Source: Actinomyces succiniciruminis (lineage in GTDB: Bacteria > Actinomycetota > Actinomycetes > Actinomycetales > Actinomycetaceae). From it: a stretch of 64,000 bases of DNA. Positions 36,251 through 51,459 of the stretch are shown piece after piece (the stretch's first letter is position 1; the number at the start of each line of letters is the position of its first letter). Both the position numbers and the translations under genes were made by a program. A model generated the notes under the pieces. The model was not told the DNA's origin, did no database searches, and saw nothing but the letters and a program-made list of their open reading frames with translations. The stretch is from contig NZ_LK995470.1 in NCBI RefSeq assembly GCF_900002405.1, positions 1-64,000 of the forward strand, read 5' to 3'.

Positions 36251-36907
36251 TCAGTGCGCCGGCGCGGACCACAGGTTGGTCCAGGTGACGCCCAGGTGGG
36301 CCAGCAGGCGCCGCAGCAGCGGCAGAGAGATGCCCACCACGCCGTGCGGATCCCCCTCGACGCCGTCGATGAAGGCGCCGCCCAGGCCGTCGATGGTGAA
36401 TGCGCCCGCGCACCACAGAGGCTCCCCGGAGGCGATGTAGGCGTCGATCTCGGCGTCGCTGGGGGAGCCGAAGTGCACGATCGTGGAGGACACGCCCTCG
36501 ACGGTGGCGGCATCGCGTGCGCGCACCAGGCTGTGACCGGTGTGCAGGGTGCCGCTGCGGCCGCGCATCGTCAGCCAGCGTTCGCGGGCCCGCTGCGCTG
36601 TGCCGGGCTTGCCGACCACCGCGCCATCGATCTCCAGCATGGAGTCGCAGCCGACCACCACCAGGTCCGGGTCCGCCTCCGCCGCGGCGGGCGGGAGGGC
36701 ATCGGCCACGTCCAGCGCCTTGGCCCGCGCCAGCGCCTGCACCTGCTCGGCGGGCGTGGGGGCGGGAGCGTCGGCGGCCGCGTGGGCGTCGGCGAGTTCG
36801 GCCAGGACGCGGGGTTCGTCGACGTCCGAGACCCGCACTTGCGGATCGACGCCGGCCGCGCGCAGGGTGGCCAGCCGACCGGTGGACTGAGATGCCAGAA
36901 CAAGCAC
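36251..36907 (-). CDS. maf: Maf-family nucleoside triphosphate pyrophosphatase
   Basis: This 218-aa house-cleaning enzyme hydrolyses non-canonical or modified nucleotides and is linked to septum control in Bacillus. The N-terminus LVLASQSTGRLATLRAAGV is the Maf signature, followed by a DVDEP segment, AKALDVA and VGCDSMLEIDG with the catalytic Asp, and GKPGTAQRARERW. GTG 36907 puts the signature at residue 3; longer upstream frames run into the repeat region and are rejected. Convergent with the hotdog gene, 6 bp apart. Confidence 0.88.
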   Translation of the reverse strand: MLVLASQSTGRLATLRAAGVDPQVRVSDVDEPRVLAELADAHAAADAPAPTPAEQVQALARAKALDVADALPPAAAEADPDLVVVGCDSMLEIDGAVVGKPGTAQRARERWLTMRGRSGTLHTGHSLVRARDAATVEGVSSTIVHFGSPSDAEIDAYIASGEPLWCAGAFTIDGLGGAFIDGVEGDPHGVVGISLPLLRRLLAHLGVTWTNLWSAPAH

Positions 36908-37014
36908 GGGCTCAAGCCTAGATGAGTAAGTCAGGGGTGTGGTTCGTGACCGTAGGGCGTAGTACGGGAGCGTCGGGGCAAGCCCTGGTGTCTGCGTGCG
37001 CGGCTGCCGACCCG

Positions 37015-37134
37015 CCCGTTGGACCCCCTGTTCCCCCGTTGGACCGCCGTAGCCGCCGGTTACAGCGGTCCAACGGGGCGTGGGCAGTCCAAGGGGGCGT
37101 GGGCGGTCCAAGGGGGCGTGGGCGGTCCAACGGG
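37015..37134. repeat. Mirror-type array of CCCGTTGGACC sites, 19-20-bp period
   Basis: Two forward sites CCCGTTGGACC start at 37015 and 37035. Four reverse sites (GGTCCAACGGG, AGTCCAAGGGG, GGTCCAAGGGG, GGTCCAACGGG) start at 37067, 37086, 37105 and 37124. The reverse part is an almost perfect 19-bp tandem repeat with linker GGCGTGGGC. The design (forward copies, centre, reverse copies, two helical turns apart) is the same as at 2257-2411 although the sequence differs. Confidence 0.75.
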
Positions 37135-37371
37135 CCGGTGCCAGACCCACAGGGGCAAGCCCCGTGGCATTTTCACGCCACCCGTGATACCCCGAAAGCC
37201 TCACTCCATCCCACACACCACGACAACACCACCACGCCAACACCACCCCGACTAACGCAACACGAACTAGCGCCGGTCTGCACGCAAGGGTGATCCGAGC
37301 GGACTCGGCTGACCGCCGTTTTCCCCTGGAAATACGCGGAAGTGGTTTCGCGGCCCGAATCCGGTGACATC

Positions 37372-37410
37372 GCTCCAGTGTGCAACGAGGCCCTCGTTGC
37401 ACACTGGAGC
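37372..37410. repeat. 39-bp perfect palindrome inside a larger inverted repeat
   Basis: GCTCCAGTGTGCAACGAGG at 37372-37390, a single C, then the exact complement at 37392-37410. Less perfect matching continues outward on both sides (GGGCCGC and TCCGC-TTCC blocks) to about 37320 and 37460. Such a long perfect dyad could extrude as a cruciform or fold as a 19-bp RNA stem, although a one-base spacer would force some unpairing at the tip. No T run follows on either strand. Confidence 0.85.
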
Positions 37411-37663
37411 ACTGTCATGACACCAGGGCCGCAGGTCAAATCCGCACAATTCCGCGGATTCTGTCGCGGCGCTCACTTCTGGAGTGTGCAGACTCACCAC
37501 AGGGACTCGAACAACGCCACTGGGCCGGCCGCCGCCCCGGCCGCCGAGTAGATGCACCAATCACACCGACGACCGGCCCCAACATCGGCGCTCAAACCAC
37601 CCCCTGACACCACCACCTCGGCCGTACCTTCAACCGACCTCGGTGCTCGCATAGGCTGGTGGC

Positions 37664-38572
37664 ATGACCGCCCGCTCCCCGTTCAGCCGGCTCGTGGTGG
37701 TGGAGCGCACCGGCTCGACCAACACCGACCTGCGGCGGGCGCTGACCGGCCCCGACGGCGCCCTCGACCCCGCCGCGGCCGCCGCCTGGCCCCACCTGTC
37801 CGCCCTGCGCGCCCTGACACAGACCGCCGGCCGTGGCCGCGCCGACCACACCTGGACCACGCCGCCCACCGGTGCACTGACCGCCTCGATCGTGGTGCGG
37901 CCGCTCGTGCCCGCCGCCAGCCTGGCCTGGCTGCCGCTGCTGGCCGGCCTCGCCGTCGCCCGCGCCCTCGCCCCCCGCCTGGAATCGACCGGCTGGAGCG
38001 CGGCCACCAAGTGGCCCAACGATGTCGTCGCCGTCCCCACGCCTGCGGTGTCGGCGCCTGCGGAGGTGCCGGGCTGGGGGAGCAGCCGCAAGGTCGCCGG
38101 CATCCTCACGGAATTGATCGGCGCGCCCGGTGGCAGCGAGGCCTCCGGCTCCGCCGCCGCGGCCCACCGGGGTGAGGCACCCGCCGTCGTCGTCGGCATC
38201 GGCATCAACCTCGCCCAGCCCGCCGCGCAGCTGCCGGTGCCCTGGGCCGCCTCCCTGGCCTCACTCGGCGCCCCCGTACCAGCGGCCGCGGAGGTCTTGG
38301 AGGACTGCGGACGCCACCTGGCGGAGCTGCTCGCCGCCTGGGAGGCGAGCAGCGGCGACCCGGACGCCGGCGCGGGCGCGCTGGGAGTGCAACTGCGCGG
38401 CGCCTGCGCCACCCTCGGGCAGAGCGTGCGCGTCACCGGCCCGGGCGGCGTCGTCACCGGCACCGCCGTCGACCTCGCCCCGGGCCTGGTACTGCAGGTG
38501 GGCGACGGCGCCGGCACGCGCCGCGTCGTCGTCACCGCGGGCGATGTCACCACGGTGCGCGCGGCGGGGTAG
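37664..38572 (+). CDS. birA: Biotin-[acetyl-CoA-carboxylase] ligase
   Basis: This 302-aa enzyme makes biotinyl-AMP and transfers biotin to carboxylase carrier domains. The N-terminal ERTGSTNTDLRRAL and TAGRGRADHTWTTPPTGAL bind biotin and ATP, followed by the KWPNDVV and KVAGILTEL motifs and GIGINL. It lacks an N-terminal HTH, so it is a ligase without repressor function. Two Ala/Gly-rich insertions (near residues 125-140 and 155-170) lengthen the protein. ATG 37664 is directly preceded by the repeat region. Confidence 0.92.
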   Translation: MTARSPFSRLVVVERTGSTNTDLRRALTGPDGALDPAAAAAWPHLSALRALTQTAGRGRADHTWTTPPTGALTASIVVRPLVPAASLAWLPLLAGLAVARALAPRLESTGWSAATKWPNDVVAVPTPAVSAPAEVPGWGSSRKVAGILTELIGAPGGSEASGSAAAAHRGEAPAVVVGIGINLAQPAAQLPVPWAASLASLGAPVPAAAEVLEDCGRHLAELLAAWEASSGDPDAGAGALGVQLRGACATLGQSVRVTGPGGVVTGTAVDLAPGLVLQVGDGAGTRRVVVTAGDVTTVRAAG

Positions 38573-51190: not shown

Positions 51191-51459
51191 GGGATCACCC
51201 GCACGACCAGGGTCCCGGCCGGAGTGCCGTCCGGGACCTCCTCTCCTGCGGCGAGAGTCAGGACGGCCATCCCGTCACGTCCCGCCTCTCCTGCTGGGCC
51301 AGGCTCACCCTGCGGCCCCTGCGGGCCAGGCTCACCCTGCGGGCCCTGCGGGCCAGGCTCACCCTGCGGGCCCGCTGGGCCTGGGACGGCCTCTACAGCG
51401 GCTACAGCCGCCGCTATCGCCGCGTCCGCACCCGCTCGCGTGTACGCCTCCACAACCAT
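51187..51459 (-). CDS. Collagen-like small phage protein
   Basis: This is a 90-aa protein. A helical N-terminus (AAIAAAVAAVEAV) precedes about 13 Gly-X-Y triplets in the form GPQGPQGEP, then a short beta-rich end. The triplets suggest a trimeric collagen helix, common in phage tail fibres. At DNA level it is a 27-bp tandem repeat and so could change length. Confidence 0.8.
   Translation of the reverse strand: MVVEAYTRAGADAAIAAAVAAVEAVPGPAGPQGEPGPQGPQGEPGPQGPQGEPGPAGEAGRDGMAVLTLAAGEEVPDGTPAGTLVVRVIP
51296..51384 (-). repeat. 27-bp tandem repeat coding for GPQGPQGEP
   Basis: About three copies of a 27-bp unit encode the nine-residue block GPQGPQGEP within the collagen-like gene. Copies differ by single silent changes, so the unit probably expands and contracts by slippage or recombination. 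Confidence 0.75.

Follow-up and report, generated by a model that had tools for sequence, protein, structure and literature searches.

The window, the whole 64,000-nucleotide stretch of Actinomyces succiniciruminis DNA analysed here, contains a maf gene and a gene for a birA-like biotin protein ligase, which are divergent and share a gap of 753 bp. An array of short sites, belonging to a repeat family that we term family 3, lies in this gap, upstream of maf and at no gene end. The features of the region are the following:

36254 to 36910, minus strand: maf, flanking gene (Pfam PF02545)
36918 to 37270, unstranded: probable non-autonomous element derived from the IS5 family, which carries the array and runs from CTAG to CTAG, with a degenerate left end
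36921 to 37640, unstranded: block of about 720 bp without a counterpart at the syntenic maf-birA gap of genomes G061 and G030
37015 to 37134, unstranded: whole two-sided array, a solo copy of family 3
37015 to 37025, plus strand: left unit 1, CCCGTTGGACC
37035 to 37045, plus strand: left unit 2, CCCGTTGGACC, 20 bp from unit 1, with the left-type spacer
37039 to 37073, plus strand: near-palindromic core of 35 bp, formed by the inner site pair
37067 to 37077, minus strand: right unit 1, exact site
37086 to 37096, minus strand: right unit 2, imperfect site
37105 to 37115, minus strand: right unit 3, imperfect site
37124 to 37134, minus strand: right unit 4, exact site
37664 to 38572, plus strand: birA-like biotin protein ligase gene, flanking gene (Pfam PF03099)

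The layout described in the first-pass annotation, in which two forward sites 20 bp apart face four reverse sites 19 bp apart around a 21-bp centre (37046-37066, between the inner sites), is indeed present at these positions. The gap holds 6 sites of one 10-mer (at most 1 mismatch, both strands), a number reached in none of 200 dinucleotide shuffles of the same gap, which held 2 to 5. A simple 19-bp tandem duplication, which the annotation had named as a possible alternative, can be rejected: among the 41 family-3 copies listed, oppositely oriented units face a conserved core of fixed orientation, and the left units mostly carry one type of spacer and the right units another.

Two other repeats were seen in the window. 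The maf-birA gap also holds a perfect palindrome of 39 bp (37372-37410; 19-bp arms, 1-bp centre), possibly a solo site of yet another array family, and a tandem repeat with a 27-bp unit (3.4 copies, 93% match) lies at 51290-51381.

A dispersed repeat and its probable carrier element

Searched with a tolerance of up to 3 mismatches in 35 bp, the family-3 core occurs in 12 copies in the genome of A. succiniciruminis itself (G000), 32 in G014, and 57 in G030, and is absent from the other 56 of the 59 genomes searched, 34 of which are further genomes of the genus. The possibility that similar arrays are absent from the genome, which the annotation had raised against its own reading, therefore falls away. 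In a second collection, the named matches were Actinomyces glycerinitolerans and A. ruminicola. The number of units differs among copies, including syntenic ones with 96-99% identical flanks (for example 225 bp vs 93 bp at loci L121 and L086), and this variation between orthologous copies resembles that of a minisatellite. At one further syntenic array (L128 in G030, L095 in G014), about 1.4 kb lies between the aligned flanks in G014. Among the 10 of 30 maf loci displayed, an array of the window type also occupies the maf-birA gap of G014, and the gap of G012 holds a diverged array with TTTGGACC sites.

The syntenic maf-birA gap measures 50 bp in G061 and 79 bp in G030, and the left breakpoint of the extra block of the window lies at 36920, inside a CTAG. 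Positions 37171-37264 match the right end of an IS5-family insertion sequence of the same genome (79% identity, E 1.6e-18). An insertion sequence of the parental type is found at 29964-30977 of contig C45, with DDE_Tnp_1 and DUF4096 domains and a split reading frame. In terminal alignments of the window element, the right end is clear and the left end matches weakly. The extra block and the right-end match together suggest that the array is probably cargo of an IS5-derived non-autonomous element spanning 36918-37270. A search of the compared loci for clean empty sites bearing a target duplication yielded none, the only difference being the block of about 720 bp. IS5-like ends stood on both sides of 2/12 family-3 copies examined in A. 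succiniciruminis, 9/21 in G014, and 11/43 in G030. With so many copies carrying such ends, some of the dispersal of family 3 can be attributed to a DDE transposase without a nuclease. Like an IS5-family MITE, the window copy rides in an element whose right end is IS5-like; unlike in a MITE, the array also occurs without such ends and is tied elsewhere to a nuclease gene.

Predicted nuclease genes flanked by arrays

Both G014 (L094) and G030 (L039) contain two family-3 arrays about 1.2 kb apart, with a gene encoding a protein of 308 amino acids between them. The syntenic place holds a solo array of 92 bp in A. succiniciruminis versus an array-gene-array arrangement of 1.4-1.55 kb in G014, G012, G030, and G005; for this contrast between one solo array and four species, gene loss is a simpler reading than insertion. 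No ortholog of the family-3 nuclease was found in the A. succiniciruminis assembly, in which the best match (34% identity over part of the protein, E 6.5e-10) is a different nuclease, encoded on contig C30. The gene has likely been lost from this genome, for which 90 contigs with an estimated completeness of 99.7% are available and an assembly gap elsewhere is possible. In several species the nuclease gene adjoins the same ABC-transporter gene, which argues that the nuclease gene is not itself freely spreading. Relative to this shared neighbour, its orientation at L200 is opposite to that at L187, suggestive of a flip of the segment that the palindromic arrays enclose.

In an AlphaFold2 model of the family-3 nuclease (pLDDT 90, pTM 0.87), residues 5-191 resemble an AbiEi antitoxin (6y8q; Foldseek E 3.8e-5, Z 10.3), and their similarity to Rv2827c is weaker (1zel; Z 8.1). 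For residues 196-305, the match is to I-Bth0305I, a homing endonuclease, in its catalytic domain (3r3p; Z 10.5, rmsd 2.9, 94 residues), and residues 194-305 resemble Vsr (1cw0; Z 9.3). AbiEi models of PADLOC also match the nuclease (best E 2.1e-8). The protein is thus modelled, and predicted, to consist of an AbiEi-like DNA-binding domain and a Vsr/I-Bth0305I-like nuclease domain. Eight residues (E195, E199, D232, E243, D245, K249, E266, and E270) are invariant in all 27 aligned homologues, and some of these acidic residues, or the lysine, may be catalytic in the C-terminal domain. Pfam and NCBIfam held no matching model for the family-3 nuclease, and a sequence search of solved structures returned nothing; sister subfamilies fall under Pfam DUF559/MTES_1575, with a restriction-like C-terminal domain.

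Homologues of the nuclease are encoded in 41 of the 46 genomes of the genus. At 30 genus loci, which are the best-scoring matches, about one per genome, and not a random sample, the left and right flanks were compared over the 500 bp next to the gene, and a similarity of more than 50 bits was counted as a flank repeat. Such a repeat was found on both sides of the gene at 25/30 nuclease loci (the other 5 had none above 50 bits), compared to 0/30 maf loci and 1/300 random intervals. Most of these flank repeats are two-sided facing arrays with a spacing of 19 or 20 bp, built on unrelated motifs (TTGGACC, AGGTTGTCC, GGGGTAGCG, TCGACACC, GAGACGGTA, CGGGGACAT, CGAGGTCGA, and others). At L207-L209, L212, L214, and L215, the flank repeats are single palindromes of 60-80 bp without a clear 19-bp series. 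The best lag was 19 or 20 at 20/30 nuclease loci, and 19 in 5/30 maf control flanks; since some maf flanks hold arrays, the lag statistic alone gives no clean separation of the two sets.

Across the order, homologues occur in 177/297 genomes (E <= 1e-20). Outside the genus, 15/26 loci had flank repeats above 50 bits and 11/26 had none, and the clear facing design with a period of 19-20 bp was seen at L229, L234, L236, L237, and L246. Similarity between loci exceeded 50 bits in 18/300 comparisons in the genus and 8/300 outside it, and the top ones listed are mostly close orthologs. Flank repeats were also found at 10/20 DUF559 loci of five genomes, which cover several different families, and at some of them the repeat is a palindromic element of 120-140 bp instead of a 19-bp array. 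In another DUF559 subfamily (L167, L168, L169, L171, L172, L173, and L186), the gene stands between such 120-140-bp elements, which are bounded by ends of the TGTC...GACAAACG kind, contain an inner stretch that closes with CAACGTTT, and lie in direct or inverted orientation to each other.

The first-pass annotation had proposed that architecture rather than sequence is under selection, based on arrays about 34 kb away in the window that have unrelated sequences. These arrays exist, with about 40 BLAST matches in the genome for either of them:

2257 to 2410, unstranded: family-1 array (GACGGTTCGTACC type)
2684 to 2765, unstranded: family-2 array (GGTCGTAAACC type), with units of about 20 bp

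The primacy of architecture is borne out to the extent that the two-sided design of 19-20 bp recurs with unrelated motifs around nuclease homologues in the genus and the order. A role of the array as a site for maf or birA gains no support: the window array is one solo member of a dispersed repeat family, inside a probable IS5-family-derived element. A candidate nuclease gene for family 1, which is the best match named above, lies on contig C30 of the same genome, between two family-1 arrays (L180), and no partner nuclease of family 2 was found in this genome. Other intergenic repeats with a period of about 20 bp in Actinomyces, of the GAGGACGTC..., GAGTACGACCTC, and CCGAGATCGGT types, were seen at L031, L038, L139, L144, and L180:1-95.

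Co-divergence of motif and protein was assessed on the flank-repeat segments alone, as whole flanks are confounded by shared neighbour genes, and covered 24 of 27 loci (3 were dropped, having no repeat of 45 bits or more). Arrays were shared by 8/8 pairs with at least 80% nuclease identity, 2/96 pairs at 45-80%, and 0/172 pairs below 45%; the rank correlation of 0.40 was reached by 0/5000 permutations. At one syntenic place beside the ABC-transporter gene (L187, L188, L190, L192, L195, and L200), orthologous nucleases are accompanied by different motifs. The motif pair found at the nuclease gene of G025 has 82 matches in G025, 21 in G034, 6 in G021, and 0 in the other 43 of 46 genomes, and a reversed-pattern control gave 0 in all genomes. 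G034 has the G025-type motif, yet matches the family-3 nuclease just once, and weakly. For G137, from another family of the order, the motif pair has 15 matches in its own genome and 0 in 14 others. Going by these match counts, four families (1, 3, and those of G025 and G137) have the motif of the nuclease locus dispersed in a gene-bearing genome as well, and motifs are dispersed mainly in the genome with the cognate nuclease.

Proposed mechanism, rival explanations, and known systems

The explanation that we consider best, and in full likely, is that the window array is a solo and now orphaned copy of the repeat that partners an array-flanked nuclease. The AbiEi-like domain would bind the array sites as facing pairs, as AbiEi antitoxins bind facing repeats, and the nuclease domain would nick or cut the array, near its centre. 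Recombinational repair with other arrays would then copy, expand, and homogenise the arrays, and the motif would be tied to the protein and re-coded together with it. Recombination between the two arrays could remove the gene, with a solo array left behind, as at the ABC-transporter locus of A. succiniciruminis. In this lineage, capture of an array by an IS5-type element, seen in the window copy, may account for part of the dispersal. With moderate confidence, we favour the broader proposal that these pairs form a new class of element in Actinomycetes, in which an AbiEi-Vsr nuclease and its facing-site arrays co-evolve: the protein would drive array copying and homogenisation, and the motif would be re-coded within a geometry of 19-20 bp that the protein fixes.

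The main rival, which we consider rather unlikely, holds that the arrays serve the nuclease gene solely as autoregulatory operators, and perhaps as terminators, and that copies were spread by capture in IS5-type elements, with the nuclease uninvolved. AbiEi-type proteins do bind facing repeats in their own promoters (PMC7319586), and family-3 copies often have IS5-like ends, with the window copy inside such an element. However, the arrays stand on both sides of the gene and not just upstream, and dispersed copies in other families too, such as the 82 site pairs of G025 and the 15 of G137, may point the same way. A role in defence, or one resembling a toxin-antitoxin system, is improbable. Here, the nuclease would attack incoming DNA and the arrays would serve as self-marks, storage sites, or decoys, in keeping with the N-terminal match to the AbiEi of an abortive-infection system and the restriction-like C-terminal domain of sister subfamilies; a self-mark would, however, seem to need neither motifs that diverge between orthologs nor arrays that pile up at many loci of the host. 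Slightly more improbable still is an ordinary REP-like hairpin that has no enzyme of its own and acts as an RNA terminator, as a stabiliser of mRNA, or as a nucleoid-protein site: the predicted transcript of the window array does fold strongly (z -5.5, equalled by 0/200 shuffles), but neither the pairing of motifs with nuclease orthologs nor the array position on both sides of the gene is expected of such a hairpin, the window array lies in a divergent gap away from gene ends, and a permissive Rfam search yielded no more than three microRNA matches, one of them on the nearby perfect palindrome, which all score below gathering and were rejected as chance.

Among known systems, the proposed partnership of nuclease and array resembles in its working the REPtron, in which a RAYT (tnpA-REP) gene is accompanied by REPs scattered through the genome (PMC8266576; PMC3733652). 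Common to both are an enzyme gene that has a palindromic repeat of its own, a large number of dispersed copies, and co-divergence of enzyme and repeat. The flanking of the enzyme gene by its repeats is found here at the 25/30 genus loci given above, and the same repeats are dispersed in the genome. The enzyme differs: that of the REPtron is a HuH transposase (Y1, IS200/IS605-like), whereas the protein modelled here is predicted to be AbiEi-like and Vsr/I-Bth0305I-like. The REPtron repeat is a single tagged hairpin of 20-40 nt; the repeat here is a two-sided array of sites of about 10 bp with a period of 19-20 bp, in which family 3 does have a near-palindromic core of 35 bp, embedded among multiple sites. 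The host group differs as well, with the present pair found in Actinomycetes.

Free-standing EDxHD/Vsr-like homing endonucleases such as I-Bth0305I would share the C-terminal fold, going by the model, and also tie a nuclease to a cognate DNA site. Here, instead, the gene lies between two complete repeat copies and encodes an extra AbiEi-like domain, the repeats are dispersed in tens of copies, and the gene is a long-standing resident of a syntenic place. The AbiEi antitoxins of AbiE type IV toxin-antitoxin systems (S. agalactiae and M. tuberculosis Rv2827c) have what the model predicts to be the same two-domain fold as the N-terminal part of the nuclease. They bind facing 23-bp inverted repeats, of which the S. 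agalactiae protein has two and M. tuberculosis Rv2827c has four (PMC7319586), so that binding of facing, tandem sites by an AbiEi-like domain has a precedent. Here, this domain is instead fused to a nuclease domain, and the repeats flank the gene on either side and are dispersed.

A search of open-licence PMC papers found no description of the arrays or of their link to the nuclease. Together with a REPtron-like working that lacks the defining HuH transposase, this led us to rate the nuclease-array pair as new in kind, although its behaviour may prove to be a variant of the REPtron theme. The results suggest that the arrays and the array-flanked nuclease form an undescribed partnership of repeat and enzyme, in which the sequence code changes and the layout is kept. 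This connects abundant intergenic repeats of actinobacteria that lack an explanation, widespread AbiEi/DUF559-type nuclease genes of obscure function, and a protein-DNA code that changes within a fixed geometry, a link among three subjects that is absent from the open-licence PMC literature searched. As most of the nuclease genes come with a candidate target on both sides, their function is directly testable, and a large, naturally occurring collection of matched DNA-binding specificities could be drawn from them. If the proposal is true, the pair would be a functional double-strand-DNA counterpart of the RAYT/REP system.
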